Shown here in pieces: positions 12,082 to 33,944 of a DNA stretch of 64,000 nucleotides. The stretch lies in the NCBI GenBank assembly GCA_946405625.1, contig CAMJHQ010000004.1:62001-126000 (forward strand), in the 5' to 3' direction. The stretch's first letter is position 1. Each line of letters opens with the position of its first letter. The notes under the pieces were generated by a model. The model worked only from the letters and a program-made list of their open reading frames with translations, was not told the origin of the DNA and made no database searches. This DNA comes from an uncultured Lachnospiraceae bacterium. Lineage in GTDB: Bacteria; Bacillota; Clostridia; Lachnospirales; Lachnospiraceae. Both the position numbers and the translations under genes were made by a program.

Positions 12082-13086
12082 TCAGCATATTCTCGGTAAC
12101 AATTCTCCGCTTGGGCGTGACAGGAATGTCTTTGCTCCAACAGCGGTATTAAGTATAACTTTACCTGTATTCTCTTCCGTTACTTCTCCGATGATGCATG
12201 CTCCTTCCGAATTCTTACATCCGCGAAGTGCTTCGACTATTTTATCCGCTTCCTCTGCAGGTGCGAAGATTACAAGTCTTCCTTCACACGCCAGATATAG
12301 CGGTTCAAGTCCCAGCATAGAACATACGCCGCGGACGCTGTCCTGAACAGGAATCTTATCAGCATCAAGAGATATGCCCACATTACTTTCTGCAGCTATT
12401 TCATAAAGTACTGTTCCGACTCCTCCTCTTGTAGCATCTCTTATTACATGAACATCCTTTGTAGCATCAAGTACTGCTGCAACATTTTTTGCAAGCGGAG
12501 CACAATCGCTTGTCACATCCGCATCAATCTTAAAATCATTTCTCGCAAGAAGGATTGTACAGCCATGACGGCCTATATCACCTGTCACAATAATCTTATC
12601 TCCCGGTTTAGCAAAAGCACCCGAGGTTGATGCACCATCTATTATATGGCCTATGCCGGTAGTTGTTATAAATATCTTATCGACCTGTCCTTTTCCGGCC
12701 ACCTTTGTATCACCTGCTACAAGATATACACCTGCCTCCTCAGCAGTCTTGCCCATAGCCTCAGCAATCTCCTCAAGCTTATCTACAGGAAATCCCTCTT
12801 CAATAACGAAAGAACATGTCAGGTATTCAGGCTTCGCTCCCATACAAGCAACATCATTGACCGTTCCGCAGATTGAAAGCTTTCCGATATTTCCTCCCGG
12901 AAATTCATACGGAGAAACTATAAATCCATCCGTAGACATTGCTATCTTTCCCGCACTCATATCAAGTACAGCTGCATCATCGGCCGTAAGATATGGGTTT
13001 GCAAAGTATTTTTTGAATATACTACCAATCAGTTCATTCGTCTGAACTCCGCCTGAGCCGTGTGCAAGTGTAATTTTATCGTCCAT
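12082..13086 (-). CDS. hypE: HypE, hydrogenase cyanide-ligand maturation enzyme
   Basis: A 334-residue PurM/SelD-like ATPase. HypE dehydrates the carbamoyl group that HypF places on its C-terminal cysteine, giving the thiocyanate that becomes a CN- ligand on iron. The diagnostic C-terminal PRIC motif is intact, as are LAHGSGG, DDAAVLD, CGTVNDVACMGA and DATRGGVGTVL. Length matches the family. It is last in the hyp run, 159 bp after hypD, with a possible promoter of its own in that gap. Confidence 0.95.
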   Translation of the reverse strand: MDDKITLAHGSGGVQTNELIGSIFKKYFANPYLTADDAAVLDMSAGKIAMSTDGFIVSPYEFPGGNIGKLSICGTVNDVACMGAKPEYLTCSFVIEEGFPVDKLEEIAEAMGKTAEEAGVYLVAGDTKVAGKGQVDKIFITTTGIGHIIDGASTSGAFAKPGDKIIVTGDIGRHGCTILLARNDFKIDADVTSDCAPLAKNVAAVLDATKDVHVIRDATRGGVGTVLYEIAAESNVGISLDADKIPVQDSVRGVCSMLGLEPLYLACEGRLVIFAPAEEADKIVEALRGCKNSEGACIIGEVTEENTGKVILNTAVGAKTFLSRPSGELLPRIC

Positions 13087-13173
13087 ATTTGTTGTCCTTT
13101 TGTTCAGCGGATCTTATGAGACACATTTCATAAATCTCTTATCCTGCTAAACAATCGGCCTCCTTCCTATCAT

Positions 13174-13201
13174 ACTATATTATTTCTATAATCTGTCTCA
13201 A
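13174..13201 (-). promoter_or_regulatory. Possible internal promoter for hypE
   Basis: TTGAGA (13196-13201), 16 bp, TATAGT (13174-13179) on the minus strand in the 159-bp hypD-hypE gap. Confidence 0.35.
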
Positions 13202-13245
13202 CTTACTATAGAATAATTATTCTTTCATTAAACATTTTCTATCTT

Positions 13246-14298
13246 CTACTGAACCGAAGCTCCGTATGTATAATAAGCCGCACAAGCGCCTTCATCTGAT
13301 ACCATGCAGGCACCTACTGCATGAAGCGGTGTGCAGGCTTTGCCGAACATAGGGCAGTCCGAAGGCTTACATTTCCCCTGAAGTACTTCTCCGCAGCGGC
13401 ATGCCGGATTAGGCTTACCCTTGATCTCAGGCATATCATACTTGATCCTGGCATCAAAATCCGAATACTCAGCCTTCAACTTCTGGCCTGACATTTCTAT
13501 AACTCCGAGGCCTCTCCACTCTGTATCACAAAGTTCCATGACCTCATTCATAATCTTCTGTGCAGCTGTATTGCCCTCAGATTTAACTACTCTCGGATAA
13601 CAGTTTTCAAAGAAAGGCTCACCCTTCTCAAGGTTATCTATTGTTACCGCAAGTGCTGTCATAAGCTCATTTGCCGTAAAGCCGGCAACAACACCCGATA
13701 CGCCTTCTTCCTTAAGCTTCTCGCATACAGAATTTCCTGTAATTGCATTAACATGTCCCGGATACAGAAATGCATCCGCACTTCCCTTCAGCTTCTGATA
13801 AGCATTAGGCATAGTCTTGTTTGCTGTAAGGATTGAAAAGTTCTTAAGTCCGAGACGCTCTGCCTTTTTAACCGCAAGACATGCAGACGGTGTCGTCGTC
13901 TCAAATCCGACCGCAAGGAATACAACCTCAAGTTCGGGATTTTCCTTTGCAAGTTCAACTGCATCATCCGGTGAATATACAGGGCGTACATCAGCTCCGT
14001 CCGCTCTTGCTCCCGCAAGATTCTGCTTTGTTCCCGGAACCTTGATCAGATCGCCGAAGGTACAGATCGTACAATGCTTCTCCAGTGCAAGATATATTGC
14101 CTCATCTATAAATCCTACCGGAGTTACGCAGACAGGGCAGCCCGGTCCGGAAATAAGATCGATATCAGGAGGAAGAAGGCTCCTGATTCCAAGTCTGAAT
14201 ATCTCATGAGTATGTGTTCCGCACACCTCCATGATGCGGAGCTTACGGCCCTTGTAGCCGGTTATTATCTCTCTTGCGTTTTCTATTACTTCACTCAT
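13246..14298 (-). CDS. hypD: HypD, Fe(CN)2CO assembly scaffold
   Basis: A 350-residue iron-sulfur protein on which, with HypC, the Fe(CN)2CO unit is built. Visible are VCGTHTH, the GPGCPVCVTP motif, GFETTTP and the C-terminal cluster-binding region (CRCGEVLQGKCKPSDC, then two further cysteines). ATG 14298 follows AAGGAT and lies 10 bp after the folA stop. A longer frame starting inside folA is possible but has no better initiation signal. Confidence 0.95.
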   Translation of the reverse strand: MSEVIENAREIITGYKGRKLRIMEVCGTHTHEIFRLGIRSLLPPDIDLISGPGCPVCVTPVGFIDEAIYLALEKHCTICTFGDLIKVPGTKQNLAGARADGADVRPVYSPDDAVELAKENPELEVVFLAVGFETTTPSACLAVKKAERLGLKNFSILTANKTMPNAYQKLKGSADAFLYPGHVNAITGNSVCEKLKEEGVSGVVAGFTANELMTALAVTIDNLEKGEPFFENCYPRVVKSEGNTAAQKIMNEVMELCDTEWRGLGVIEMSGQKLKAEYSDFDARIKYDMPEIKGKPNPACRCGEVLQGKCKPSDCPMFGKACTPLHAVGACMVSDEGACAAYYTYGASVQ

Positions 14299-14308
14299 CA
14301 CTTTATCC

Positions 14309-14794
14309 TTATCTTCTATCCTTTTTTCTGGTATAAGTTGTTCTCGTAAACTTAATCTCATCGCCGCCTGTCTCACCGACAGTCACATCGAAATCATCCT
14401 CATTAAATTCGGGAAAGAATACATCTCCGTCCTCAACGACAGTATCCACCTCAGTAATATACATTACATCAACCAGCGGAAGCCCTTCCTTATACAGTCC
14501 GTATCCTCCGGATATATAAACATTTTTATCATCTCCCGCCATAGCTATTGCTTCCTCAACAGAAGCAGCAGTCCTGAGATTCTCACCTTCATACTTCTTT
14601 GTTCTTGAAACAACTATCGTCTCTCTGTTAGGAAGAGGATGGCCTATCTCTTCATAAGACTTTCGGCCCATAACAACCACATTACCGGTGGTGAGTTCCT
14701 TGAACTGTTTCTGCTCACCCTTTATTCTCCATGGGATCATTCCCTTTTTACCGATCACGTTATTCTTTGAACGTGCAACTATTAATCCAACCAT
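14309..14794 (-). CDS. folA: Dihydrofolate reductase
   Basis: A 161-residue DHFR that reduces dihydrofolate to tetrahydrofolate with NADPH. Motifs are LIVARSKNNVIGKKGMIPW (substrate and cofactor loop), VVMGRKSYEEIG and YISGGYGLY. It lies between hypC and hypD in the same direction, with only 10 bp before hypD. This is not a standard neighbour of hyp genes. No thyA is nearby. Whether it serves the hyp/nitrogenase-like pathway or is merely co-transcribed is unknown. Confidence 0.92.
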   Translation of the reverse strand: MVGLIVARSKNNVIGKKGMIPWRIKGEQKQFKELTTGNVVVMGRKSYEEIGHPLPNRETIVVSRTKKYEGENLRTAASVEEAIAMAGDDKNVYISGGYGLYKEGLPLVDVMYITEVDTVVEDGDVFFPEFNEDDFDVTVGETGGDEIKFTRTTYTRKKDRR

Positions 14795-14923
14795 TGATCA
14801 ATCATCCTTCCTGAATATACTTCCCGAATTCTGCTTCTGCATGAATATCTTAAATATCTTAATCTCTGCCTGAACAAAAATACTCCGGCTGTCCAAAGTA
14901 CTTCCGTAATATGCATACTTCAT

Positions 14924-15136
14924 TTATCTTGCATGCTTCTTCAGGATATCCATTGTTTCATCGGCATCATCATCTGTTATCTTCGCTATGGCAACACCCG
15001 CATGAACCATAACATAATCGCCCGGTTCAAGATCTTCGAGCAACTCTGCACTAACATCTCTTTTTGCTCCGCCTGCATCGATAACCGCAGTTCCATCCTT
15101 AACATTTACTACTCTTGCAGCAAGTCCTACACACAT
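14924..15136 (-). CDS. hypC: HypC, HypD partner chaperone
   Basis: A 70-residue HypC/HybG/HupF protein (OB-fold). Starting at ATG 15136 gives the obligatory MC N-terminus (MCVGLAARV); the processed N-terminal Cys binds iron together with HypD. CCTCC at 15145-15149 (GGAGG on the coding strand) sits 8 nt upstream and supports this start over two in-frame ATGs further up. The conserved core GDYVMVHAGVAIAKI is present. Confidence 0.92.
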   Translation of the reverse strand: MCVGLAARVVNVKDGTAVIDAGGAKRDVSAELLEDLEPGDYVMVHAGVAIAKITDDDADETMDILKKHAR

Positions 15137-15245
15137 TTTCATTCCCTCCATGTTTTTCCGACGGGACAAGGTCCTTCGGTAAATTTTGTATTCTACTTAT
15201 CATATGATTTTATATTTTTATGATTTTATTATTTATTGAAAGTGA

Positions 15246-16049
15246 TCATTCACTGAACACTTTTCTGAATTCTGTTATATTTTCTCCGTTTTCACGGCCA
15301 TATATTGCAAAGCATATTTCATCAAAACATCTGCCATAATCCTCATCGATTATCACCTGCCTGAAATACTCCGCTACATCGTTCGGATTATTACCAAAGG
15401 CTCCGCAGCCCCAGGCACCGAGTACTATATTCTTATAACCGTACTTTGCGGCAGCCGCAAGCATTATCCTGATCCTCGTAAGAAATGTTTTCTTTATAAG
15501 TTCTTTTCCGGCAAGAAGTGCTGCACCGTATCTGTTCGGTGCGGGTACTGTTACAACTCCCATCATTACAGGTTCGGAAAGCATCTCATACTTTTCGTTT
15601 CTGAACACTGCAACCTTCGGAGAAATGAGCATATAATCTGATTCAACACGGCTCATATGTGTATTATTATATTTATACATTTCCGATGCTTTATTCGAAT
15701 TGATCGATGCATAAAGTGTACTGCATCTGCAGAGCGCTTCCTCCTGTGCATTGGCTCCGATTCTGAAACCGCCTCCCGGATTATGAGCATTTGCAAAGTT
15801 CATGACCAGTGGATTATCATACTCCCGACCGGCTTGAAAAGAATCTGCATTTATAACTTTAATCCCACACATTTCGGAAGACTTATATGATGAAATACCA
15901 TTTGCCAGAAACTCCTGCCCTTCTTCCGGAGTGATCACGATAACTTCTTCATAATCTTCTTTCGGAAGAAAAATCTCTCTGCCGTCAAATCTGTACTTGC
16001 CTTCCTCGGTTATTCTCATAGTTTCTTTCGCAATTTGAATATTATTCAT
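15246..16049 (-). CDS. TIGR02452 macrodomain protein (bacterial PARG type)
   Basis: A 267-residue macrodomain protein of the microbial poly(ADP-ribose) glycohydrolase family. It has the catalytic signature GGG followed by QEE (NPGGGFRIGANAQEEALCR, about residues 113-132), the NFANAHNPGGG loop and the phosphate-loop segment VLGAWGCGAFGNNP. Such enzymes remove ADP-ribose from proteins. ATG 16049 follows GGAGG. It lies 46 bp after hypF and before hypC in one transcriptional run with two NifH-like proteins, the classic targets of regulatory ADP-ribosylation in nitrogen fixers. A role in reversing such a modification is inference. Confidence 0.88.
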   Translation of the reverse strand: MNNIQIAKETMRITEEGKYRFDGREIFLPKEDYEEVIVITPEEGQEFLANGISSYKSSEMCGIKVINADSFQAGREYDNPLVMNFANAHNPGGGFRIGANAQEEALCRCSTLYASINSNKASEMYKYNNTHMSRVESDYMLISPKVAVFRNEKYEMLSEPVMMGVVTVPAPNRYGAALLAGKELIKKTFLTRIRIMLAAAAKYGYKNIVLGAWGCGAFGNNPNDVAEYFRQVIIDEDYGRCFDEICFAIYGRENGENITEFRKVFSE

Positions 16050-16095
16050 AGGGGTTATCCTCCTACTCTCTAATGCTTTTACTATAGAGTAACAT

Positions 16096-18618
16096 TTACT
16101 GTTCCCGGGATAACGCAGCCATTCCGGCAAGCGCCTGTCCTACACAGATTCCTCCGTCATTCGGTGGTATCAGACTGTGGCGTAGAACTTTCAGCCCGGA
16201 TTTTTTAAGTCCTTCATCAACAAGACCGAGAAGAAGCTTATTCTGAAATACACCTCCGCTCAAAGCTATCGTTCTTATTCCTGTTTTATCTGAATATCTT
16301 ATACAACTTTCAATGATATATCCGGCAAGCTTCGAATGGAACATATAGGCAAGCCTGCCTCTATCCTCTCCATTCAGGACTCTGACCGCAATATCTCTTG
16401 CAAGACTGCTTGTAAAATCCTTCGATATATCAAGTCCTTCAGCGGCGGTAAAGCTTATCTTGTCCAAATTCTTCTTCAGATATCTTTCTGCCTCAAACAT
16501 CAGCGCAGTTGAAGCTTCTCCTTCAAAGGTCGAGCTTCTTCTGATTCCGAGTATCGCACTTACCGCATCGAATAGTCTTCCTGCACTTGTCGAGATAATG
16601 CTGTTTATTCCGGTCCTCGCCATATTCTCCAGAAGTGAGAATTCCATAGGCGAACACAGTTTCAGATCATTACATATCACTTCTTTGCCAAGTGAGGCAT
16701 GAGCTTTGATTTCCGGATCAGAAGGATTCTCCGTTCCTTCCGCATTCATGTCTGCTGCTTTAGTTCCCGCAAAATCGCCGAGCAGCGATGCCGCAATCCT
16801 CCATCCTTCCTTCGAAGAAAGATCTCCTCCGCTTTGTATGAACGGTGTGATGGAACCAAGTCTCTCAAATCCCGACACACTGCATCTGAGAAATTCTCCT
16901 CCCCATATTGTACCGTCGGTTCCGTAACCCGTTCCGTCAAAGGAAACTCCGATCACTTCATCCAAATGATCATTCTCAGCCATACATGAAAGTATATGCG
17001 CATAATGATGCTGAATCTTCATAACCGGAAGTCCAAGTGACTCTGCTGCTGCAGTAGTATTATACTTCGGATGCATGTCACATACAACCAGTGAAGGCTC
17101 TGCCTCAAGAAGTGACTGCATTCTCGTAATTGACTCTTCAAGTGCATTTACGGTTCTGATATCCTCCATATCACCAACATATGCAGATGGGTATATAAGC
17201 GAATTCTTCGCTATCGCAAATGTATTCTTCAGTTCGCCTCCGACTGCAAGTACGCATCCTTTAAGCGTGCTCATATCTTCCGGCTTACTGCTTATCATAA
17301 CCGGAAGCGGTGCAAATCCTCTTGACCTTCTGATCATATAAGGGCGTCCCTTATAGAAATCGGTAACAGAGTCATCCGCTCTCGTTCTTATCATTCTGTC
17401 ATTGGATAAAATGTAATCCGTGAAGTCATATATTTCGGAAAGTGCATCCTCGTCGGTTCTGCATATAGGTGCTCCGGATGCATTTGCACTTGTCATAACA
17501 AGACAGTCCGACACTTCATACTCATCATCATAATCAAAGAGAAGCATGTGGATCGGCGTATACGGGAGCATGACACCGACATAAGGATTATCGGGTGCCA
17601 CCGACTCGGCAAGACTTGTATGCGAAGCAACGTTTGCAGCATCACTCAATCTTTTTTCAAGTAATACTATCGGTTTCTGATATCCTGTAAGAAGCTCTCT
17701 TATCTTACCTGCCTCAGAACCTTCGGGATTCTCAGGTCTCGCTTCAACCGGGATCATAGTACCGAACAGATCATCTTCAAGTTTACATTCCCTGAGGACT
17801 GTTTCCATATTTTTCATCATGACCGCAAAAGGCTTCATCGGTCTATGTTTTAACATTCTAAGTCTTGCAACAGCTTCTTCGCTCTTTGCATCACAGGCAA
17901 GATGAAATCCACCGATTCCCTTTACGGCAACTATCTTTCCTTCGGAAAGTGCACGTCTCGCCGCAGTTATCGCATTTCTGCCGCGAGCTGTAATTCTGCT
18001 TTCCCCATTCTTTTCATTTCCGCTGTTCTTGTCATTTTTGCCATTCACGTCACCGGTTTCGATCAGATATACCGACGGTCCGCAGTTCGGACAGCATACA
18101 GGCTGAGCATCATAGCGTCTTGTTTCCGGATGAGTATATTCATACTCGCATTCCGGACACATTTCAAAATCCTTCATGCTGGTACGTTCTCTGTCATATG
18201 GCATGGAGTCAAGAATAGTAAGCCTCGGTCCGCAGTTGGTACAGTTAATGAAAGGATGCATATATCTGCGATTCGACTTATCATAGAGCTCTCTCTTGCA
18301 TTCCTCACAGATAGCAATATCCGGCGAAACAAATATATCCCCTTCATCTCTCTCGCTTTCAATGATTTCAAATGAATCAAATCCGTCCATATCACATTCA
18401 CGGCTTATTATATTAAGTATCACTGCTCTATCGGGCGGTGTATGCCTCAGTGCATCGAAGAGCGTTCCGACATTATCTCCCTGTGCGAATATTTCAACAT
18501 AGGATCCTTTATTTGCAACTGTTCCGGTTATTTCATTATCCTTGCATATCCTGCTGACAAAAGGTCTGAAGCCAACGCCCTGAACTATTCCGTATACTCT
18601 TATCATATATGTAAGCAC
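16096..18618 (-). CDS. hypF: HypF carbamoyltransferase
   Basis: An 840-residue protein with the complete HypF domain order: acylphosphatase (RVYGIVQGVGFRPFV, to about 95), two C4 zinc fingers (CEECKRELYD to CCPNCGP, about 108-180), YrdC-like domain (about 210-400) and Kae1-like carbamoyltransferase (HHYAHILSCMAEN, SFDGTGYGTDGTIWGGEF, LSGGVFQN). It uses carbamoyl phosphate and ATP to carbamoylate the HypE C-terminal Cys. GTG 18618 lies 8 nt after AGGAGG; ATG 18606 is the alternative. It follows the last nitrogenase-like gene by 64 bp. Confidence 0.94.
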   Translation of the reverse strand: MLTYMIRVYGIVQGVGFRPFVSRICKDNEITGTVANKGSYVEIFAQGDNVGTLFDALRHTPPDRAVILNIISRECDMDGFDSFEIIESERDEGDIFVSPDIAICEECKRELYDKSNRRYMHPFINCTNCGPRLTILDSMPYDRERTSMKDFEMCPECEYEYTHPETRRYDAQPVCCPNCGPSVYLIETGDVNGKNDKNSGNEKNGESRITARGRNAITAARRALSEGKIVAVKGIGGFHLACDAKSEEAVARLRMLKHRPMKPFAVMMKNMETVLRECKLEDDLFGTMIPVEARPENPEGSEAGKIRELLTGYQKPIVLLEKRLSDAANVASHTSLAESVAPDNPYVGVMLPYTPIHMLLFDYDDEYEVSDCLVMTSANASGAPICRTDEDALSEIYDFTDYILSNDRMIRTRADDSVTDFYKGRPYMIRRSRGFAPLPVMISSKPEDMSTLKGCVLAVGGELKNTFAIAKNSLIYPSAYVGDMEDIRTVNALEESITRMQSLLEAEPSLVVCDMHPKYNTTAAAESLGLPVMKIQHHYAHILSCMAENDHLDEVIGVSFDGTGYGTDGTIWGGEFLRCSVSGFERLGSITPFIQSGGDLSSKEGWRIAASLLGDFAGTKAADMNAEGTENPSDPEIKAHASLGKEVICNDLKLCSPMEFSLLENMARTGINSIISTSAGRLFDAVSAILGIRRSSTFEGEASTALMFEAERYLKKNLDKISFTAAEGLDISKDFTSSLARDIAVRVLNGEDRGRLAYMFHSKLAGYIIESCIRYSDKTGIRTIALSGGVFQNKLLLGLVDEGLKKSGLKVLRHSLIPPNDGGICVGQALAGMAALSREQ

Positions 18619-18682
18619 CGACTTCACCTCCTTTTCACTCCTGTTGTTATACTCTGATTTATGGTTAATCCTTATTACATCA

Positions 18683-19888
18683 TCAGCTGTTGTATTTCAG
18701 TTCATGAATTGTTCTGCCTTCATCGAGCGGTCTGCCCGATATTGCAAAATGCGGAAATTCAATAAACCTGCCTTTAAATCCCGCTGCTGTAAGCAGTCTC
18801 TTAATATCTTCATCTGCAATCACTGCATCATAGTCTTCTTCAGATATGAGTTCCCAAAGATCATCTTCTCCCGAAAGTCTTATATCTCCGGATTCCTTAT
18901 AATCATCATCCTGCATAAAGAATGTGGCGCAATTAATACTGAGCCTTACATTTTCTTTATTACTTACATTTCGTATGATATTACGTACTTCGTTTGCAGC
19001 AAACTGAGAATGAATGATAAGTACTCTCTTCTCATCTTTTTCATCAGATAAAGACTCTGTATATTCTTTCACTTCCGAAACAACACTGTCCGGAACAAAA
19101 GGATATCCGACTTCATAAGGAACACCAAACTCTTTCTTCAGATATTCCGCTGCTTTAATCCCCGCAGCACTTACCACAAGATTCTTCTTTGCTTCAGGTG
19201 CTTTTCTGATTTCCTCAAGCCCTGTTCCCATTGAATAAATGACAGCCTCATCTATTCCGTAATTCTTCAGTCCCTGAATCAGTGGCTCAGATGTAGAATA
19301 TCCTGTTTCAAGCGGTGTAGCTCCGATCACTCCGATGAGCGAACACAACTCTACTTCTTCTACTTTGGCATTTCCGGATGCTTCTGCTGCCGGCTCCGGT
19401 TTTGTGCCGTCCGGTGTGGAAGTTTCAGCATCTAAAATATCCGCTCCTGCGAATTCACGAAAGAGCTTATCCCAGGCTTCACTCTCGCCCTCATCGTAAT
19501 ATTTCGTTCCGACAGCATTTACGGTTATGCACGGAACTCCCGTTTTCTTTTCCGCCATTCTCTTAAGTGCCTTCATATCGGTACCGATAACGGCAGGGAC
19601 AGGTGTTGCAACGATTGCCGTAAACTTACATTTAAGAGTATCCTGTGCATCGGAAAGCTTTTGTATCAGCTTGTCATCGCGTCCCATTATTGCATCCATA
19701 TCACGAAGTCCCGCACTGAACACAGCACTTTTCTTCATGAACCATCTTGGTTCATCAAAACCGCAGATATTTCCTGCACATCCTCCTGCATCGCAGATAA
19801 CGATGATTCCTCCAAGCTCATATAAGACACCGCATGCTCCCGACTGATCCGGAGCAAAGGGTGATAAATATTTAAGCATTTTCTTCAT
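18683..19888 (-). CDS. Nitrogenase component 1-type oxidoreductase, beta-like subunit 2
   Basis: A 401-residue member of PF00148 resembling NifK/NifE-type chains. Cysteines at 19, 32, 37, 42 and 87 include two at P-cluster-like positions (SGACGVLYELGG, DAGGCAGN). The third conserved position is not Cys: ATPVPAVIGTD replaces the nitrogenase TTC.AE.IGDD segment. A Pro/Ala/Glu-rich insertion lies at about 155-175. It starts at 19888 after GGAGG, 20 bp downstream of the alpha-like partner, so they probably form a heterotetramer. The missing nifEN/nifB context argues against nitrogen fixation. Confidence 0.8.
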   Translation of the reverse strand: MKKMLKYLSPFAPDQSGACGVLYELGGIIVICDAGGCAGNICGFDEPRWFMKKSAVFSAGLRDMDAIMGRDDKLIQKLSDAQDTLKCKFTAIVATPVPAVIGTDMKALKRMAEKKTGVPCITVNAVGTKYYDEGESEAWDKLFREFAGADILDAETSTPDGTKPEPAAEASGNAKVEEVELCSLIGVIGATPLETGYSTSEPLIQGLKNYGIDEAVIYSMGTGLEEIRKAPEAKKNLVVSAAGIKAAEYLKKEFGVPYEVGYPFVPDSVVSEVKEYTESLSDEKDEKRVLIIHSQFAANEVRNIIRNVSNKENVRLSINCATFFMQDDDYKESGDIRLSGEDDLWELISEEDYDAVIADEDIKRLLTAAGFKGRFIEFPHFAISGRPLDEGRTIHELKYNS

Positions 19889-19908
19889 TGATCAAATCCT
19901 CCGGTAAA

Positions 19909-21189
19909 TCAGCCAAGCTTTTCCGACAGTCTGTTGAAAAGCTTTATAACTCCGTCATATCCGAAAGGCTGCTCATCATCGCACCAGTCAATTCCCGGAG
20001 TATCCGGATGATAATATGCCGAGTCCGCTCCGATATAGCAGTCAACCTTCTCTTCCTCATAATGAAGCATGGAAGGGGACAGATTAGAATATACCTTTGT
20101 CTCGGGACTAAGCTCTGCAAGGCGTTTCAGGAATCTGAAATTCAGTTCTCCGATAGTCGCAAAGATTTCCTTAACCTCAAAACCTTCTTCAATAAGCATA
20201 AGAGCCATTTCGATAGGATCTCCGTTCTGTATCTCACCGACCGCAAAGCTCTTCTTTCCGTGCTTTTCTCTGAATGCATCAATTACATTACGTGCATTTT
20301 CAAAATATTCGGTGTCATCAAGTTCTACGCCGATAGCCTGTCCGAGAAGTCTGTACTGGTTTCTGATCTTATCGGTTCTATAGAGCCTGAGCAGCTCGAT
20401 AAAGGGAATCCCCAGTCTTTCCTGCATGTCCTGTGCGGCAGCTCTTGCTTCCGGATTTAAAACCAGATTAAAGTTTGCTTTCGACAGCTCATGATATTCA
20501 TCAATATTATTGCATCGTGACAGCTCTCGTATATTTTTAATCCCTACTGACTTCATAAGCGGATAAAGCTCTGACGAATCAAAAAGCGGAGTAAAATATC
20601 CGAGCAGATTCATATCTGCCGAATTCCTCTTCTCTCTTTTCTCAAGAAGTGAATATACCGAAGTTCTGACTGCAGCCATCGGTGGAAGTCTCTTCTCTCT
20701 GGTCAGTGCATACATATAGCAGGCAACCGCCGGAATTCCCGTTTTCTCCGTAACCTTCCTGCAGACTCTTTCCATATCCGTTCCGAGCAGCGCATCAACG
20801 CATGTGATACATATCATTATTGCCGATGGTTTCTTCGGAAGAACCGATAGCATTTCTTCCGCAGCCTGAGGAATCTTTGTCAAATGTCTGCCCGTTACTA
20901 TATCCGTATCATCCAGAAGCTGGAAGAAAAATCTGTCTCTATATTCAGGCGTTGAACGGAAAAGCGATGTATTCCTGCCGCAGCAGCCCGGTGATACCAG
21001 CAGCATCACAGAATCAGGTACCGCAAGTCCCGCACGCTTAACTCCGAAGCCCTTTGCACCCGGAGAGTTAAATGCAAGCGTTGCCGGAGAACTGTATATC
21101 AGATGCTCCGAACTCTTTAATTCTCCCGGCAGAGCCATAAGTCCGGCCTCCGCAAGTTCCTTTGCAGTTTTATAAAACGCCTTGGTCAT
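19909..21189 (-). CDS. Nitrogenase component 1-type oxidoreductase, alpha-like subunit 2
   Basis: A 426-residue PF00148 protein. Candidate iron-sulfur ligands are C69/C70 (SPGCCGRN) and C127/C130 (ICITCVDALLGTD), the latter aligning with NifD C154. It has the family pattern of three Rossmann-like domains but little else in common with NifD; no FeMo-cofactor Cys/His site could be recognised. It lies 26 bp after the NifH-like gene and 20 bp before its beta-like partner. The substrate is unknown; other nitrogenase-like enzymes reduce tetrapyrroles or methylthioalkanes. Confidence 0.8.
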   Translation of the reverse strand: MTKAFYKTAKELAEAGLMALPGELKSSEHLIYSSPATLAFNSPGAKGFGVKRAGLAVPDSVMLLVSPGCCGRNTSLFRSTPEYRDRFFFQLLDDTDIVTGRHLTKIPQAAEEMLSVLPKKPSAIMICITCVDALLGTDMERVCRKVTEKTGIPAVACYMYALTREKRLPPMAAVRTSVYSLLEKREKRNSADMNLLGYFTPLFDSSELYPLMKSVGIKNIRELSRCNNIDEYHELSKANFNLVLNPEARAAAQDMQERLGIPFIELLRLYRTDKIRNQYRLLGQAIGVELDDTEYFENARNVIDAFREKHGKKSFAVGEIQNGDPIEMALMLIEEGFEVKEIFATIGELNFRFLKRLAELSPETKVYSNLSPSMLHYEEEKVDCYIGADSAYYHPDTPGIDWCDDEQPFGYDGVIKLFNRLSEKLG

Positions 21190-21215
21190 CTCTGTTACCT
21201 TTCAGATTCAAAAGA

Positions 21216-21983
21216 TTAATTATCGGACTTCTCATCCTCTTCGATAAGGAGTCTTGCGAGGTCGAGAAATCTCTTACTTACTTCAAGTGTCGGGTCGCCT
21301 TCGATAACAGTCTTTCCCTGATCCTCATAATGAATAATGTCATTTGTTCTCGGAATATCCGCTATTATCGGAAGACCTGTTCTTTCCGCAAAGGCACGTA
21401 CCTTTTCCTCCTCACCCTCGACAGCTCTGCGGTTCATAACGATGCCTCTTACCTTTGCATAGCTTCTGTCCTGAAAATTCTTAACCGCACTGTTTATATT
21501 GTCTGCCGCATAAAGGGCCATCTTCTCACCGGATGTAACTATCAGAACCTTATCGGCATAGCCCTCTCTTATAGGTGCGGCAAATCCTCCGCATACTACA
21601 TCTCCGAGAACATCATAGAGGATTGCATCCGGCTTATATTTCTTATTAAGCTCCAATTCTTCAAGCAGGGAAAATGTAGTTATTATTCCTCTTCCCGCAC
21701 ATCCGAGCCCCGGTGTAGGTCCCCCCGTTTCTATACATACAACTCCGCCGAAACCTTCTCTTGTTATCTGGTCCAGCGAGGTCGGTTCCTCGTCATGTTC
21801 TCTCATATAATTCATAACCGGTGTCACTGGATTTCCCGCAAGAAGATTAGCTGTGGAATCAGCCTTCGGATCACATCCTATCTGTATTACCTTCTTACCG
21901 AGGGATGCCAGTGCAGCCGAAAGGTTTGATGTAACCGTCGACTTACCTATACCACCCTTACCGTAAATGGCAACCTTGATCAT
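21216..21983 (-). CDS. NifH-like iron protein 1
   Basis: A 255-residue NifH/BchL-type reductase: P-loop GKGGIGKST (residues 8-16), [10 protein letters not shown], and the [4Fe-4S] ligands C95 (GLGCAGRGI) and C131 (GDVVCGGFA). R98 next to C95 corresponds to the arginine that DraT ADP-ribosylates in classical NifH. It should couple ATP hydrolysis to single-electron delivery to the neighbouring component-1 proteins. It lies between the two alpha/beta pairs, with AAGGAG upstream of the ATG. A second paralogue is encoded at 25171-25923. Confidence 0.93.
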
Positions 21984-22021
21984 AATTTCAAACTCCTTTA
22001 TCTTTTCTACGAAATTAAAGC

Positions 22022-23245
22022 TTATCCGATATCCTTCAGAAAACCAAGTTTCGTATCTATCATATTCTTTTCAAACTTTTTAAAGCATCTTCCCGAAAAT
22101 GCATCATGCGGGATTTCAATAAACTTCTTTCCTTTACATATCGGTCTGAAGAGCGGGTCTCCGATGATAATGTCGGATTTCTCTATTTCTTTTTCGAGAC
22201 GGTCTTCATCATCACAGGATATATCTCCAAAAAACTCTGTACCACCGACTGTCCTTACCGATGAATCATCTTTAAGCTGAGACATATCCCCGTCACCTAC
22301 AGTTTCAAGTACTCTCGTACCATATCCTGTTTCCAGTGATATGGCGGCAGCAAGCGACGCTGCAAGAACGCTCTCACCCAAAACCGCAATCCGATTATCA
22401 TAAAGCCTGCACTCATCCGCGATACTTATCTCTGAATATGTTTCTCCGGTCATAGCAGCCTCTCCCACACATTTCAGCTTTTCTATAATAAGCTTCGGAA
22501 GCTTCTCTCCATATGGAGTTCCTACCACAAAAGGAATCCCGTATCTTTTTTCCAAGCTTTCCGCAAGTGCTCTTCCCGAAGATGAAACGACAAGGCTTAC
22601 ATCTGCTATGATTAATCGTCTCACTTCATCAAGTGAAGTTCCCATTCCGATACATGCATTAACCGTAAGACCTTCTCTCTCAATCCAGTTACGTATTATC
22701 AGGTCGGTCCCCAGCGGAAAATCAAGCGGTGTCATTCCCAGAATATTAACACTGATCTTCCTGCCGATCTTCGATTCCGGTACATCCGAAGACTCATCTT
22801 TTGCAGTAAATCTCTCTGACAGAGTAAGAAATGCATTTCCTGCTCCGGTTATGTAGCTCTGCATTCCGTTTGTCTTAACATTGAAACTCGGTATGCCTGT
22901 ACGGCATTCAACCTCATATGCGATCGCATCCATATCTATGCCTATCATAGCGGGCATCGGCGAAGCACATATCGCTATATATTCCGGATGAAGCTCTTCA
23001 GCCGCTGCAACAAGATCACTGATAAACTTCTCATCATTTCCCATTACTGCGTCATTTTCGGTAAGTCCCGATATAAACATCATACTGTCCATATCGTACC
23101 ATCTCGGTTCATCATGAGTCGTATATGTGGAATTACAACCCGATGCATCATGTATCACTGTCATTCCACCAAATTCATATAGGGCAGAGCATACTCCTGA
23201 TGTATCTGCAGCATATATTGATATTATTCTTGCAGTCTGATTCAT
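22022..23245 (-). CDS. Nitrogenase component 1-type oxidoreductase, beta-like subunit 1
   Basis: A 407-residue PF00148 protein. C19 ([13 protein letters not shown]) and C37 ([10 protein letters not shown], followed by THDEPRW) are P-cluster-like. C93 (AICASPMP) is close to but not at the NifK C153 position, which is Pro. The ATG overlaps the TGA of the upstream alpha-like gene (ATGA), so translation is probably coupled and the two proteins form one complex. An in-frame ATG 21 bp further upstream is less likely. It is clearly paralogous to the chain at 18683-19888. Confidence 0.8.
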
Positions 23246-24654
23246 AGGCAGCTCTCGCACCCCCATCCCTTATGGCTGATGATCTTCTTTGTTTCTTTCG
23301 GATTCCGATATGCATCTATAAGCAGCTCAGAAAGCTTTTCTACAGCCTGATAGCCATAGCATCCGCCTCCTTCCACTATATCAACGAAGTGCTCCGTCCC
23401 GGTAAAATATGCTGCCTTCTGTCCGATTGCAAGTATCATTTTATCCGCCCCATCTGCAGCACTTCCCGCATCGATTCCTGTCTTACATAATCCCGCATCT
23501 GAGTTCAGATTACATCCGCATCCCGCAGCAAATCTCATAGCAGGATCGTTTGTCGGATATATCATTATATCCGCGCATTTTTCATCTGCGATTATCCTCT
23601 CAAACGCATCTCTTTCATCTGCAGGAAAGTTATCAGAATATATTCTCTTTACATTAAATCCATATTTTATAAGCAGTTCCAAAAGTTCAAGTATGTACGG
23701 ATATGCTGTATAATCTATCGCAATCTCAGTGTCACCGATCAAATCATGAGCTCTTTCCAGCGCAGACCCTGCAGCTGTTTTACGCTCTTCTATCCATTCT
23801 TTTATGACTGCATGTTCAAGACCCAATGATTCTCCGATCATATAGAGGTTCTCATCCAGCTTCTGCTCATCAAATCTGAGCGGAGCACGGAGCCATTTAA
23901 GTCCCAACCTTTCAGAAAGCTGTTTACCTGATGCATCCGCAACCGAAAGATAGGATATCGCCGTACCTGCGGCTCCGAGTTTCAGGTATTCATCGTAGGT
24001 TTTACAATCTGTTATATCCCATATATTTTTTCCTGACATTTCAATCAATGAAACCAGATCAGACTTCTTATCATTCGGGAGGTTGCACCCGATTATTGCA
24101 ACAAGCTTTTCATCCTTATCCTGTTTTTTTACCGATTCATATAGGCTCAGCTTCATCATTGAATCCGGTGACATAGTTTTTCTCATTGTCGGAATCATGA
24201 AGCATTCAACAAAATCTATATCCGGATACATTTCCGATAATTCATCAGTGATCATTGTGAAGTCACAGCCCTCGAACATATGCATACAGCTGAGATAGAT
24301 CAGAATGCATCTCGGATGTTTATCCATTTGATCAACTATATGTGCAGTACCTTCGATAACACGTTTCTCCATCTCTCCGTTCCACATATCCTCTTCACGG
24401 AGAGCCACCCATGACATACGCTCTGTCTCGTTCATTTCGGCTGCAGTAAGGATCACACCTCTGAGGCAGCCCTGGGCACAGACATAAACCTGATGTGATT
24501 CCGGAATCAGCATTCCGGTATGGACGATATTCCATACGCCACGTGCCGGAGCATTGTATTGCAGTCCTTCATAGAAAGGCACCGGAAAATCAATATCCTT
24601 GAGCAGCACGGGCTCCGGGATTCTATGTTCAGTTGTCCGAAGGGATTTGATCAT
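23242..24654 (-). CDS. Nitrogenase component 1-type oxidoreductase, alpha-like subunit 1
   Basis: A 470-residue PF00148 protein. Cysteines at 59 and 63 (YVCAQGCLRGV) and at 123 (LSCMHMFEGCD) match the NifD P-cluster ligand pattern; C116, C130, C151 and C190 are extra. A long frame continues 75 codons upstream through the palindromic leader, but ATG 24654 has GGAGG 5 nt away and the extension encodes hairpin DNA with no domain. It is first gene of the main operon, behind a promoter, an attenuator and a hairpin array. Confidence 0.82.
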   Translation of the reverse strand: MIKSLRTTEHRIPEPVLLKDIDFPVPFYEGLQYNAPARGVWNIVHTGMLIPESHQVYVCAQGCLRGVILTAAEMNETERMSWVALREEDMWNGEMEKRVIEGTAHIVDQMDKHPRCILIYLSCMHMFEGCDFTMITDELSEMYPDIDFVECFMIPTMRKTMSPDSMMKLSLYESVKKQDKDEKLVAIIGCNLPNDKKSDLVSLIEMSGKNIWDITDCKTYDEYLKLGAAGTAISYLSVADASGKQLSERLGLKWLRAPLRFDEQKLDENLYMIGESLGLEHAVIKEWIEERKTAAGSALERAHDLIGDTEIAIDYTAYPYILELLELLIKYGFNVKRIYSDNFPADERDAFERIIADEKCADIMIYPTNDPAMRFAAGCGCNLNSDAGLCKTGIDAGSAADGADKMILAIGQKAAYFTGTEHFVDIVEGGGCYGYQAVEKLSELLIDAYRNPKETKKIISHKGWGCESCL

Positions 24655-24677
24655 GGTTGCCTCCTTAATGGTTGCAT

Positions 24678-24866
24678 ATCTGCTCTTGCACATAAATGTG
24701 CGAGCAGATAAAGGATATTTCGCAATTGATAAATCAATTGCGAAATGATGCGATCTCGTCAAAGCAGCATATCTGCTGAAATCAGATATGTATGTGATAT
24801 TGCATATGTTCCTGCAAGCAAGCTTGCGAACATATGCAATATCACATGCATATGCTTCGCATATGC
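24678..24866 (-). repeat. Array of five long hairpins in the nitrogenase-like operon leader
   Basis: Five inverted repeats lie head to tail: 24678-24709 (13 bp, 2-nt bulge); 24718-24745 (perfect 13 bp, TTTCGCAATTGAT arms); 24768-24790 (8 bp); 24794-24845 (18-bp outer arms plus 5-bp inner stem); 24848-24866 (8-bp GCATATGC arms). They fill nearly all of the leader between attenuator and start codon. None is followed by a T-run in the operon direction, so they are not terminators. Roles in mRNA stability, processing or protein binding are possible. Confidence 0.85.
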
Positions 24867-24888
24867 TGCCTTGCCTCAATTAACGCAC

Positions 24889-25022
24889 AAAAATGCACTC
24901 TTCTACTGATAGAAGAGTGCAGTAATTCCCTATAGAACTATTGCCACATGCTTCTATCTCAAGCTGCGGATGTTTCGTACATCCTATAGGTTTCAATATC
25001 AGGTTGGTATTTGTTTATTTGT
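24889..25022 (-). ncRNA. Riboswitch-like leader with attenuator
   Basis: Predicted minus-strand leader from about 25022. Stem P1 is CCTATAG (24984-24990) / CTATAGG (24929-24935). It encloses a GGATGT/ACATCC hairpin and a GCTT/AAGC hairpin. A perfect 12-bp terminator (24894-24921) with TTTTT follows. The segment GATAGAAG inside the aptamer-like part (24951-24958) is exactly complementary to CTTCTATC in the terminator (24908-24915), so the two folds exclude each other. I do not recognise the class; it lacks the landmarks of TPP, SAM-I, cobalamin, T-box, purine or c-di-GMP-I elements. Confidence 0.55.
24894..24921 (-). terminator. Attenuator terminator before the nitrogenase-like operon
   Basis: Perfect stem TGCACTCTTCTA / TAGAAGAGTGCA with a 4-nt loop, then TTTTTG on the minus strand, about 240 bp before the first start codon. 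There is no gene between it and the promoter, so it must act on leader RNA. Confidence 0.8.
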
Positions 25023-25028
25023 TCTGTT

Positions 25029-25058
25029 ATTTTATCACCTCACACGAGGCTATGTCAA
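25029..25058 (-). promoter_or_regulatory. Promoter of the nitrogenase-like operon
   Basis: TTGACA (25053-25058), 18 bp, TAAAAT (25029-25034) on the minus strand. The spacer holds a CCTC-ACAC-GAGG dyad (25038-25049). Confidence 0.65.
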
Positions 25059-25069
25059 ACCGGTTCAAC
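25054..25069. promoter_or_regulatory. Operator-like dyad at the -35 of the nitrogenase-like operon
   Basis: Minus-strand GTTGAACCGGTTTGAC overlaps TTGACA. It matches 13 of 16 positions of the M56-gene operator at 11971-11986, which suggests the same DNA-binding protein. Confidence 0.45.
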
Positions 25070-25124
25070 ACATTTATATACTTTTCACAGTTCATCATCT
25101 TAATTACCACCAAACTGTATTAAT

Positions 25125-25154
25125 AAAGCCCCGACAGATTCCTGACGGGGCTTT
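25125..25154 (-). terminator. Terminator after NifH-like gene 2
   Basis: AAAGCCCCG (25125-25133) / CGGGGCTTT (25146-25154) with a 12-nt loop, then ATTAAT on the minus strand, 17 bp after the stop. It separates the hydE transcript from the main operon. Confidence 0.85.
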
Positions 25155-25170
25155 CATATCTCATATTGGA

Positions 25171-25923
25171 TCATTCTTTGAAGCTGTTAAATATATAATC
25201 TGCAGCCTTAAGAAGTTTCTTCGTAACTTCGCTGTCCGGATACAGTTCAACAACGGTTCCTCCTTCGGATTCAGCCTTTTCGAAAATGCTGTCCCGAGGG
25301 ATGGTTGCTATAACATCCGTACCGAAATCCGCCGCCAGCTCAGCCGCACGCTTTTCTTCATTTTCAACACCTCTGCAGTTAAGGATGATTCCTCCGAGCT
25401 TTGCATAATCACGGCTTTTAAAATTCTCTACAGCCATAGCTATATTTGCTGCCGCATAGATGGCCATCTTCTCTCCCGATGTCACTATATAAACCTTATC
25501 GGCATAACCTTTACGCATCGGCATAGTAAAACCTCCGCATACAACATCCCCGAGAACATCATATATCACTACATCCGGCTTATACTTCTCATATGCGCCC
25601 TTCGCTTCAAGCTGTTCAAGTGCATTTATGATACCTCTTCCGGCACATCCCAGACCCGGAACAGGGCCGCCGGCTTCTACGCAGAGAACACCCGATCTGC
25701 TCTCCTTAACCATATCCTCTATAGTGAAATTCTTTTTGCTTCTTACCAGATCAAGGACAGAAGTAACCTCTTCTTTCGGTCTCAGAAGCGTTGTAGAATC
25801 CGCCTTCGGGTCGCATCCTATCTGCATTACCCTGAGTCCGTTTGCCGCAAATGCCGCAGACAGATTCGATGAAAGCGTCGACTTTCCGATTCCTCCTTTT
25901 CCGTAAATTGCAAATTTTATCAT
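25171..25923 (-). CDS. NifH-like iron protein 2
   Basis: A 250-residue NifH/BchL-type protein: P-loop GKGGIGKST (8-16), [10 protein letters not shown], cluster ligands C93 (GLGCAGRGI) and C129 (GDVVCGGF), and R96 at the ADP-ribosylation position. It differs from the first paralogue in the segment after Switch I and near the C terminus, so each may serve a different component-1 pair. It is last gene of the hydE operon, 10 bp after the membrane protein, and is followed by a strong terminator. Confidence 0.93.
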
Positions 25924-25933
25924 TGTCTCTCCT

Positions 25934-26965
25934 TTACTGATTATATTCCATTATAGGTCTCTCAGTACTGTTCACTTTACTGTCACTTGCCATGCGATTC
26001 CTAAGTTCTCTCAGGAACTTTCTGTCAAGGTTGAGCTCCGCTTCACTATACATATCCATATTCACATTCTCCATCGCCTTCTCGGCCTGATATGCGGAGC
26101 TGGCCGCCAGATCCGGTCTTCCCATTATAAAATACTGATAAAATGCAAGTATTCTTTTTGCATTCGGATCTTCATCACTTTCAATCCTGTCCTTTATAAG
26201 TGAATACATTTTAAATGCATTTTGAACATTTATAAAAATGTATGATGAATAAAAGAGCAGATTATAATAACAGCCCGTATAATTTGTCATTGATGTATTA
26301 TAGCCGTTTGCTGTCATCAGGAGCTCATCCATGTGCTTCATATATTTCGGAAGGATCTGATAATCTCCCCTGTCCAGTGCTTTGTTGATACACATATTTA
26401 AATGAGCCACCCTGAGATGCTTCGCTCCACGCCCGGACATCGCAAGTCCCTCATAAACATCAAGCTCCGAATAATATGTTCCGTCCATCAACTTAGCTCT
26501 CTGCTCCCTGAAAAGCTTCATAAGTTCCTTGTTATCCTTATTACTATCAGAAATCAGTGCTAAAATGACAACAAATGCCGAAATGGCAGCTCCAAACTCC
26601 ACAATTCCGGAGAAAAAGCCTATCCCCTCCGAGTTCATTGCACTTCCGTAGATTATCCTGAGCGTAATAACAAATATGAAATAGAACAAAAAGTTAACCA
26701 CCATAGGCCCATAGCCCAGTATATATTCTTCACGGACACTTTTGTTCATGCCTGTCGCAAGAGCTATTACCGGGGTCAATCTGAACTTTCCTGTTTTAAC
26801 CCATTTACGCTTTTCTTTTTCAGAACGTTTACATCCTTCCCATTCGAGTACCTTGATCATATATGGATAGCATTTAAACGCTTTCCCAATTAAATAAGTA
26901 AACAGTAAATACGTATATCCGAAAAGGATTATTCCGACTATACCTCCTAATGTAACTGAAAACAT
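25934..26965 (-). CDS. Unknown membrane protein between hydE and nifH-like gene
   Basis: I do not recognise this 343-residue protein. Three hydrophobic segments are clear (about 5-27, 86-107 and 116-140). The last 200 residues are soluble and helical, with a TPR-like feel ([52 protein letters not shown]). A basic loop ([18 protein letters not shown]) follows the first helix. Spacing of 23 bp to hydE and 10 bp to the NifH-like gene shows co-transcription. It might anchor or service the redox complex, but nothing in the sequence proves it. Confidence 0.7.
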
Positions 26966-26988
26966 ACTACTTTCCTCACTAATATATT

Positions 26989-28059
26989 CTAACTTGCATA
27001 TGAGATATGATCCCCTCTTGCTATCTCAACCTTATATCCTATTCTTTCCATTCTTCCTTCTATGCATCCCCTGCATGCAGCAGACGTATCACCTGTGCAG
27101 ATTTTATTATCATAAAGCATATAGTTTTTTCTGACATCTATCGGCGAAAGGTTTGGCATAATAACATTTGCGCCTGCAAGAACCCCTTCCTCTCTTCCTC
27201 TCGGATTAATAGTTCCGAGTGCAGTTGTTGCAGGAAGCAGAACCTCCGGAAGCATAAGTCTCGAAAGACTGAGCAGAAAGAGTGTAAGTTCATAAGAGCC
27301 CTTAGGCATATCTCTGAACGGAGTATCCTTATGCGGAAGAAATGGACCGATGCCGATCATTTCCGGTTTAAATTCCTCCATAAAGATCATATCCTCGGCT
27401 ATACAGTTGACCGTCTGGTAAGGTGAACCCACCATGATCCCACAGCCGGTCTGAAAACCAAGCTCCTTAAGGTCTCTCAGACATCTCATTCTGTTCTTCC
27501 AGGACATTTCCGAAGGATGAAGTTTTCCGTAATGTTCCTCGTCAGCAGTCTCATGACGAAGCAGATACCTGTCAGCTCCTGCAGCCTTATATGCCGCATA
27601 CTCTTCGCGCTTTTTTTCTCCTATCGAGAGAGTCACCGCACAATCAGGATACTCTTCCTTTATCTTTGATACTATCCTGCATATATCGTCGCAGGTATAT
27701 GTAAGATCTTCACCGCTCTGAAGAACAAATGTTCTGAATCCGTATTCATAACCGGCTCTGCAGCATTCAAGTATTTCATCCTCAGTCAGTCTGTATCTTT
27801 CAAGGCAATCATTTCCCGCCCTGATTCCGCAATAATAGCAGTTATTCTTACAAACATTTGAGAATTCAACAATTCCTCTTATAAAAATACTCTTCCCGTA
27901 AACGCTGTCAGCAGCTTCACGTGCCTTACCTGCAGCATAGAGTCTGTCCTCATCCGAATATGTACTGAGAAGAGTGATCCATTCTCCTTTTGTGAGTTTT
28001 CTCTCTTCCCTCAGTTTATCGATCAATTCCTGATTTGATTTCTTATCCATTTCTGTCAT
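26989..28059 (-). CDS. hydE: HydE-like radical SAM maturase
   Basis: A 356-residue radical SAM protein of the HydE/BioB-like group. The CX3CX2C cluster motif is C70-C74-C77 (CKNNCYYCGIR). Further HydE-like features are TFVLQSGED, LRHETADEEHYGKLHP and the tail CTGDTSAACRGCIEGRMERIGYKVEIARGD. HydE helps build the 2Fe subcluster of [FeFe]-hydrogenase. PylB is a homologue but normally sits in pyl clusters. ATG 28059 follows AAGGA. It heads the operon with the membrane protein and NifH-like protein 2; hydF is encoded at 34041-35264 and hydG is not in the window. Confidence 0.88.
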   Translation of the reverse strand: MTEMDKKSNQELIDKLREERKLTKGEWITLLSTYSDEDRLYAAGKAREAADSVYGKSIFIRGIVEFSNVCKNNCYYCGIRAGNDCLERYRLTEDEILECCRAGYEYGFRTFVLQSGEDLTYTCDDICRIVSKIKEEYPDCAVTLSIGEKKREEYAAYKAAGADRYLLRHETADEEHYGKLHPSEMSWKNRMRCLRDLKELGFQTGCGIMVGSPYQTVNCIAEDMIFMEEFKPEMIGIGPFLPHKDTPFRDMPKGSYELTLFLLSLSRLMLPEVLLPATTALGTINPRGREEGVLAGANVIMPNLSPIDVRKNYMLYDNKICTGDTSAACRGCIEGRMERIGYKVEIARGDHISYAS

Positions 28060-30789: not shown

Positions 30790-30805
30790 CCGAAAGGTAA
30801 TCTAT

Positions 30806-32347: not shown

Positions 32348-32353
32348 GGTTAT

Positions 32354-33655: not shown

Positions 33656-33703
33656 TCTCATAACCTAATGAAAAACATATATGTAATTTAAAAGGAGACT
33701 CAT

Positions 33704-33931
33704 ATGGACAGACTGTTAGAAATTCTTGAAGAAATAATTCCGGGAGAAGATATCGAAACCTGCACAACTCTGGTTGATGATAACATCCTTGATTCCTTTG
33801 CTATCATTTCACTGGTACAGGCACTTGAGGAAGAATATGATATCGTTGTTTCTCCTGCAGAACTGATTCCGGAAAACTTCAATTCCGCAGAAGCTCTGTG
33901 GGAAATGGTCGACAGACTTATGAATGAATAA
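33704..33931 (+). CDS. Acyl/aminoacyl carrier protein (DltC-like)
   Basis: A 75-residue acidic four-helix carrier protein. The phosphopantetheine serine is S31 in DNILDSFAIISL. It starts after AAAAGGAG, 48 bp beyond the decarboxylase gene, and is the last gene before a terminator. It should carry the amino acid activated by the DltA-like enzyme and hand it to the MBOAT protein. Confidence 0.9.
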   Translation: MDRLLEILEEIIPGEDIETCTTLVDDNILDSFAIISLVQALEEEYDIVVSPAELIPENFNSAEALWEMVDRLMNE

Positions 33932-33944
33932 ACAGTAAACAAAG

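Follow-up and report, generated by a model that had tools for sequence, protein, structure and literature searches.

Which metal site is assembled by a gene cluster that combines nitrogenase-like proteins with maturation proteins of both [FeFe]- and [NiFe]-hydrogenases? The question is raised by a stretch of 64,000 nucleotides (hereafter the window) from the genome of an uncultured Lachnospiraceae bacterium (assembly GCA_946405625.1, contig CAMJHQ010000004.1, positions 62,001 to 126,000), in which nitrogenase-like genes and the genes for HydE and HypCDEF all lie co-oriented on the minus strand between positions 12082 and 28059. The original prediction for this DNA had listed two NifH-like proteins, two component-1 pairs, HydE, a membrane protein and HypF-C-D-E on one strand, and all of these are indeed present, with their families confirmed; the gene for HydF, also on the minus strand some 6 kb beyond HydE, had been missed. 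It had further proposed that Hyp or HydE chemistry matures the nitrogenase-like enzyme or a partner. The association of Hyp, HydE and nitrogenase-like proteins holds, but HydF and the lack of HydG favour the opposite direction, with a hydrogenase as client. Our results suggest an undescribed second route to the active site of [FeFe]-hydrogenase: the locus is probably an operon for the maturation of this diiron site, the H-cluster, that works without HydG.

The distribution of HydG was examined in two sets of genomes, outside which Ruminococcus albus and R. bicirculans fall: 41 genomes, of which 25 belong to the genus of the window genome (itself included; seven of the 25 are less than 80% complete), and 391 genomes of its class. 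The window genome (G000 in our numbering; 3.3 Mb in 70 contigs, 97.8% complete) contains no HydG over the cut-off, thus answering a question that the original prediction had left to a search of the full genome. A divergent, hidden HydG was considered and rejected, the matches to the HydG model being ThiH (175 bits, in a thiamine operon) and HydE itself. As marker of the nitrogenase-like module we used c1_B (19909-21189; PF00148, 111.5 bits), a component-1-like protein of D/E type. Its orthologues (>760 bits) occur in 9 of the 25 genus genomes, and its profile matches 11 genomes of the class, including the window genome, at >460 bits, the next match down scoring 182 bits. HydG exceeds the cut-off in 240 of the 391 class genomes, with at most four candidates scored per genome, and in none of these 11 (Fisher p 2.3e-5, kinship ignored). 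Within the window genus three genomes possess HydG without c1_B (G002, G010, G011) and eight c1_B without HydG, four of the latter (G000, G005, G014, G015) being more than 90% complete. In genus g80 HydG without a c1_B match at E 1e-20 is seen in three genomes and c1_B without HydG in six, and in genus g160 the corresponding numbers are one and two (for both genera not all genomes with neither are listed). Among the 22 genomes of the 41-genome set with HydF, the module is found in eight of ten without HydG and in none of 12 with it.

Gene adjacency in the locus is far beyond chance, since the same gene order occurs in dozens of contigs. HypD is present in eight of the nine genus genomes with c1_B and in none of the 16 others (Fisher p 8e-6, kinship ignored); in the ninth (G021, 73% complete) the contig ends just past HypF and a PARG-like gene. 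The original prediction had named a complete NiFe hydrogenase with hypAB in the genome, together with the absence of this hyp/nitrogenase-like adjacency in relatives, as what would refute it. The adjacency is present and no NiFe large subunit was found (see below), so that the prediction was not refuted in this way. The genus genomes with long contigs (G001, G005, G007, G014) share the same order, and HydF directly adjoins HydE in G005, G007, G014 and G015. In all 10 other class genomes with strong c1_B, the genes for the NifH-like protein H1, c1_B, its partner c1_A and HypF are contiguous and in the same order, followed in nine of them by HypC-D-E; in the exception, G348, only 2.7 kb are left to the contig end. 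The second module (the NifH-like H2 with c1_D and c1_C) varies in position between families; in the stretches fetched from these 10 genomes c1_D and c1_C were found in eight and H2 in three, HydF stands beside c1_C or HydE in six, and HydE was found in two (G248, G197).

A scan of genomes of named species, for which the best 80 of 509 encoding stretches were analysed, many on cut contigs, extends this pattern to Lachnospiraceae, Ruminococcus (R. bicirculans 80/3, R. albus KH2T6 and AR67) and other Oscillospiraceae, and to a few bins whose labels, Lentisphaeria or Synergistaceae, may be wrong. Among the 80 loci, c1_A occurs in 79, H1 in 76, c1_C in 73, HypF in 70, c1_D in 65, H2 in 63, HypC and HypD in 61 each, HypE in 52, HydE in 43, HydF in 33, an [FeFe]-hydrogenase-like gene in three and HydG in none. 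The recurrent order is HydF, HydE, a NifH-like protein with a component-1 pair, a second NifH-like protein with its pair, and HypF-C-D-E; all twelve genes stand in this order in 23 of the 80 loci, and seven further loci have eleven in it, HypE missing. Where 8 kb or more was available downstream of c1_B (48 loci), HypF, HypC and HypD are present in 48/48 and HypE in 45; where at least 9 kb upstream was available (44 loci), HydE is present in 33 and HydF in 28. The median gap is below 100 bases between all neighbours and only 32 for HydF-HydE. Weak c1 homologues in six further genomes were set aside as other nitrogenase-like families: those of G217, G187 and G180 have H2/c1 genes, and neither Hyd nor Hyp genes, as neighbours, that of G306 lies near a c1_A-like gene only, and the neighbourhoods of those of G111 and G181 were left out of the comparison. 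HydG is present in G217, G187, G306 and G111; G180 and G181 are absent from the list of HydG matches.

The Hyd and Hyp proteins of the window are all intact members of their families. HydF, the scaffold GTPase of the H-cluster (34041-35264, 407 amino acids), matches TIGR03918 with 562.4 bits (cut-off 325.55) as well as PF18133 and PF18128, and its four cluster cysteine columns are kept in 37-38 of 38 homologues. HydE, the radical SAM maturase (26989-28059, 356 amino acids), scores 563.9 bits against TIGR03956 (cut-off 254.6) and matches HydE in the PDB at E 1e-90. The carbamoyltransferase HypF (16096-18627; TIGR00143, 697.5 bits, cut-off 466.1) has nine cysteine columns in its N-terminal part that are kept in 76/76 homologues. 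HypC (14924-15136; TIGR00074, 66.6 bits, cut-off 48), whose start we set at the methionine of MCVGL and not at 15169 as in the list of open reading frames (ORFs), begins with the Met-Cys that 68 of 71 homologues share. The CGTH and GPGCPVC motifs of HypD (13246-14376; TIGR00075, 404.6 bits, cut-off 192.8) occur together in 65 of 69 homologues, and the C-terminal PRIC of HypE (12082-13086; TIGR02124, 427.2 bits, cut-off 251.6) in 61/61. In a HypD tree (a quick tree with 21 of 68 rows) the module HypD form a short-branched set apart (support 79) from the only two NiFe-linked HypD included, one of them joined from two pieces, whose terminal branches measure 5 to 8 changes per column. In a HydE tree of 63 of 67 rows (four near-duplicates dropped) the module HydE do not form one clade and four label changes are needed, with L149, L169 and L060/L187 as outliers. 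The well-supported branches force one change only, so a single origin of the module HydE is possible.

The nitrogenase-like proteins, by contrast, score below the cut-off of every NCBIfam NifH, CfbC, BchL, BchX, NifD, NifK, NifE, NifN or BchB model that they match. The two reductases are H1 of module I (21216-21983; PF00142, 295.9 bits) and H2 of module II (25171-25923; PF00142, 282.5 bits), with 302.1 (TIGR01287) and 302.9 bits vs a NifH cut-off of 394.35; the best scores against the CfbC and CfbD models are 303.5 and 25.9 vs 402 and 268.4. H1 is accompanied by c1_B and by c1_A (18683-19888, K/N type; PF00148, 78.8 bits), H2 by c1_C (22022-23266, K/N type; PF00148, 106.2 bits) and by c1_D (23242-24654, D/E type, with a C-terminal CxxC; PF00148, 56.4 bits), the start of which was re-called from homologues and is 24879 in the ORF list. 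The best score of a component-1-like protein against the nitrogenase models is 77.8 (NifE model, cut-off 505.1), and c1_D matches no NCBIfam nitrogenase, CfbC/D, BchL/X or BchB model. Four cysteine columns are conserved in each reductase (H1, 86/86; H2, 67/67), as are the cysteine pairs 69/70 and 127/130 of c1_B (91/91) and Cys37 and Cys42 of c1_A (81/81). AlphaFold models of c1_B and c1_D (mean predicted local distance difference test scores of 84.6 and 83.6) have the nitrogenase component 1 fold according to Foldseek, with template modelling scores of 0.54-0.69 and identities of 11-19% to nitrogenase component 1; among the 50 matches listed for each, no subfamily is clearly nearest.

Candidate hydrogenase clients were sought in the genomes. 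As the original prediction stated for the window, a NiFe hydrogenase is lacking: no large subunit was found in the 25 genus genomes, that of the window included, nor at E 1e-10 in the 11 strong c1_B genomes of the class, at most three candidates being scored per class genome. The predicted absence of HypA is borne out by the window genome, which has no match at E 0.001 (HypB was not searched for); in the genus HypA exceeds the cut-off only in G017, which has no HypD, and five genomes (G004, G005, G014, G016, G023) have weak matches under it. The hydA that the original prediction had proposed to look for does exist, as a single [FeFe]-hydrogenase gene away from the locus (PF02906, 326 bits) with the motifs TSCSPGW, MPCTAKK and MGCPGGC. 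Its best PDB match is HydA1 (7q4v), and because this solved protein also carries TSCSPGW, we rejected the idea that this form is non-catalytic. Of the nine genus genomes with the module, seven have [FeFe]-hydrogenase-family genes, and the other two are 72-73% complete. In a few loci such genes lie about 5 kb or less from the module (G197, with TSCCPGW/MPC/MACPGGC, and L200 and L250, identified with Pfam), and in L255 one is seen near it by tblastn only. The locus is found in R. albus KH2T6 and AR67 (L217, L220), and the species produces H2 in pure culture (strain 7; PMC6776011).

The observations thus comprise a conserved operon, intact Hyp and HydE/HydF families, and no HydG or NiFe large subunit in the module genomes searched, apart from one HydG exception discussed below. 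To our knowledge, HydE and HydF have no role outside H-cluster synthesis. Because HydF is part of the operon and HydG is absent from all 11 module genomes of the class, the nitrogenase-like proteins are, together with Hyp, likely maturation factors, with an [FeFe]-hydrogenase as the likely client. The CO and CN- ligands of the H-cluster are attributed to HydG (PMC9431212), and since HydE and HydF recur beside HypCDEF and nitrogenase-like systems where neither HydG nor NiFe hydrogenase was found, a swap for HydG suggests itself. In such a pathway HypF and HypE would make cyanide from carbamoyl phosphate and HypC and HypD would transfer it to iron. H1 with c1_A/c1_B and H2 with c1_C/c1_D, both ATP-driven nitrogenase-like systems between which the work may be divided, would provide a low-potential reduction, most simply of CO2 to CO and/or a reshaping of a Hyp-made Fe(CN)x(CO)y unit, after which HydE and then HydF would finish and deliver the [2Fe] precursor. 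CO2 reduction is the simplest guess because nitrogenase Fe proteins perform it on their own (PMC9571451). We tentatively propose, as a possible form of this pathway, that the nitrogenase-like enzyme generates CO bound to metal, either on the Fe-cyanide held by HypCD or for it, giving a unit of the Fe(CN)(CO)2 type that passes through HydE and HydF to the H-cluster. The synthetic complex [Fe2(SH)2(CN)2(CO)4], an analogue of the HydE product, matures hydrogenase without HydG and HydE (PMC11736057), which supports the view that HydG itself is dispensable for the downstream steps.

Several observations weigh against a HydG-free H-cluster operon. The other four of the eight HydG-lacking module genomes of the window genus are only 71-80% complete, and in G004 (58% complete) HydG and the module occur together, and stop codons interrupt its HydE. 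HydG can also be missing without the module, as in G040, which has HydE-HydF and no matches to HydG, c1_B or HypD, and in G031, which has HydF and neither HydG nor the module. Hyp proteins may not be needed everywhere, since in G266, G108 and G415 HydE (in two of them also HydF) accompanies H2-c1_D-c1_C and a FecBCD-like ABC transporter, with no hyp genes within the stretch examined (L163, L164, L165). HydE is absent from 11 of the 44 loci for which 9 kb or more upstream was available. The lack of NiFe large subunits is by itself not significant (p 0.38), as only 58 of the 391 class genomes have one. On the client side, 13 of the 25 genus genomes (G003, G006, G008, G009, G012, G013, G016-G019 and G022-G024; six at least 95% complete, G009 with a HydF fragment) have a PF02906 protein and no HydE, HydF or HydG over the cut-off, so that the presence of HydA does not track the module. 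Like the proteins of these maturase-less relatives, the single PF02906 protein of the window genome belongs to the TSCSPGW type, and its dependence on the locus is therefore something that we infer. As to chemistry, labelling in R. eutropha excluded added CO2 as the direct source of the CO ligand of NiFe hydrogenase (PMC12134894).

Two side observations concern such partial loci. In G040, which is 99% complete, the HydE-HydF pair (L114, contig C7) is followed by an unidentified ORF of 580 amino acids. In G407 (L166) H2-c1_D-c1_C stands with transporter genes, and neither HydE nor HydF was found within the stretch; like G266, G108 and G415, this genome is not in the HydG list.

A possible though unlikely alternative, close to the original prediction, is that the nitrogenase-like enzyme is itself a catalytic reductase whose new cofactor incorporates Hyp-made Fe(CN)2CO and HydE chemistry, with HydF as scaffold for that cofactor. 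Nitrogenase-like enzymes are usually catalysts, the locus holds two full component-1 pairs with their own NifH-like proteins, seemingly more than one maturation step needs, and the invariant cysteines of c1_B and c1_A described above are extra ones. However, such a cofactor would leave the absence of HydG from 11/11 module genomes of the class and the place of HydF in the operon unexplained, and [FeFe]-hydrogenase-family genes are present in seven of the nine module-bearing genus genomes. It is more doubtful still that an unlinked factor replaces HydG, the module being a helper step near HydE and HydF (reduction, iron supply or another ligand) and Hyp having a second client. This would accommodate G040 and G031 (unless HydG of G040 is merely unassembled) and the hyp-free stretches with HydE, H2-c1_D-c1_C and a FecBCD-like transporter, and about 1% activation by HydE and HydF alone is cited in PMC9431212; yet, save in G004, HydG and the module exclude each other within three genera, and a functional swap is the simplest explanation of this exclusion. 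Finally, the plain alternative already named in the original prediction, that the hyp genes serve a NiFe hydrogenase encoded elsewhere and their neighbours are coincidental, is highly improbable, because, although HypCDEF is known from NiFe maturation (PMC12134894), it is contradicted by the absence of NiFe large subunits from the 25 genus and 11 class genomes, by the lack of a HypA match in the window genome, and by the HypF/HypC/HypD linkage in 48/48 loci and a gene order kept over dozens of contigs.

An H-cluster operon of this kind resembles known systems only in parts. It shares with HydEFG maturation a true HydE and HydF, both over the equivalog cut-offs and adjoining in many loci, but it lacks HydG and includes ten other conserved genes (two NifH-like, four component-1-like and HypF-C-D-E). 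It has all four proteins of the HypCDEF branch of [NiFe]-hydrogenase maturation with their cysteine motifs, but HydE/HydF and nitrogenase-like partners take part, HypA (in the window genome) and NiFe large subunits were not found, and its HypD is far from the two NiFe-linked HypD compared. With the Cluster IV NifH systems (CfbCD, BchLNB and methylthio-alkane reductase) it has in common a NifH-like protein and the component-1 fold, but it stays below the NCBIfam cut-offs and is linked to Hyp and Hyd. Methylthio-alkane reductase clusters are of NifB-H-D-K style, whereas no NifB is present among the locus genes scanned. For these genes the original prediction was right about NifB, the rest of the window not having been scanned for it, while elsewhere in the genome a NifB-like gene does exist (321 bits, just under the cut-off of 343.65). 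We rejected it as part of the module because it belongs, as a NifX/NifB-like fusion, to a separate nitrogenase-like cluster on contig C6 (L066:7267-12809), with a NifH of 453 bits (over the cut-off) and two component-1-like genes, near an ABC transporter and genes like those for cystathionine lyase and serine dehydratase; the layout of this cluster presumably resembles that of methylthio-alkane reductase.

The closest precedent among the papers listed by our searches is a comparison of eight Clostridium acetogens, all of which have HydE, HydF and HypCDEF, whereas hydG was detected in three and hypAB in three (PMC9431212). There divergent HydG, stray CO/CN- or unidentified mechanisms are offered in explanation, and in its accessible part no Hyp or nitrogenase-like route is proposed. 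Within the open-access literature, subscription papers and preprints not being covered, none of the papers listed describes a HydG-free system of Hyp, nitrogenase-like and HydEF proteins.

The remaining genes of the locus are passengers, variably present across the genus loci. These are a dihydrofolate-reductase-like gene (14309-14794; PF00186, 154 bits) and a PARG-like gene (15246-16130; PF10021, 110.4 bits), each present in only some relatives, and the membrane-protein-like ORF (25934-26965), which has no Pfam or NCBIfam match. The original prediction had counted the latter as a cluster member; it is indeed there, but among the other genus loci a match was found only in G001. All three vary between the long-contig genomes as well. 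Between HydE and HydF, at 28227-33942 on the plus strand, lies a dlt-like insert with MBOAT, AMP-binding and pyridoxal-phosphate decarboxylase genes and an ORF of 75 amino acids, the size of a carrier protein; G001 has a similar insert and G021 a different one. In R. bicirculans 80/3 an ORF of 133 amino acids without Pfam match (L206:12363-12764) separates c1_A from HypF.

NifH homologues have been reported from 23% of rumen genomes (PMC6776011), and in human faecal samples Cluster IV accounts for 39 of 44 NifH operational taxonomic units, with a largely unknown function (PMC4995403). Some of these homologues may be candidate hydrogenase-maturation genes rather than nitrogenases, their identity with H1 or H2 being conjectural. 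If our reading is true, it would assign a function to some of the Cluster IV NifH genes that abound in the gut and would reveal a second, HydG-independent biosynthesis of the H-cluster, with the first anaerobic enzymatic source of CO tied to Hyp proteins. An operon without HydG that is widespread in rumen and gut Clostridia would then rewrite the H-cluster pathway.

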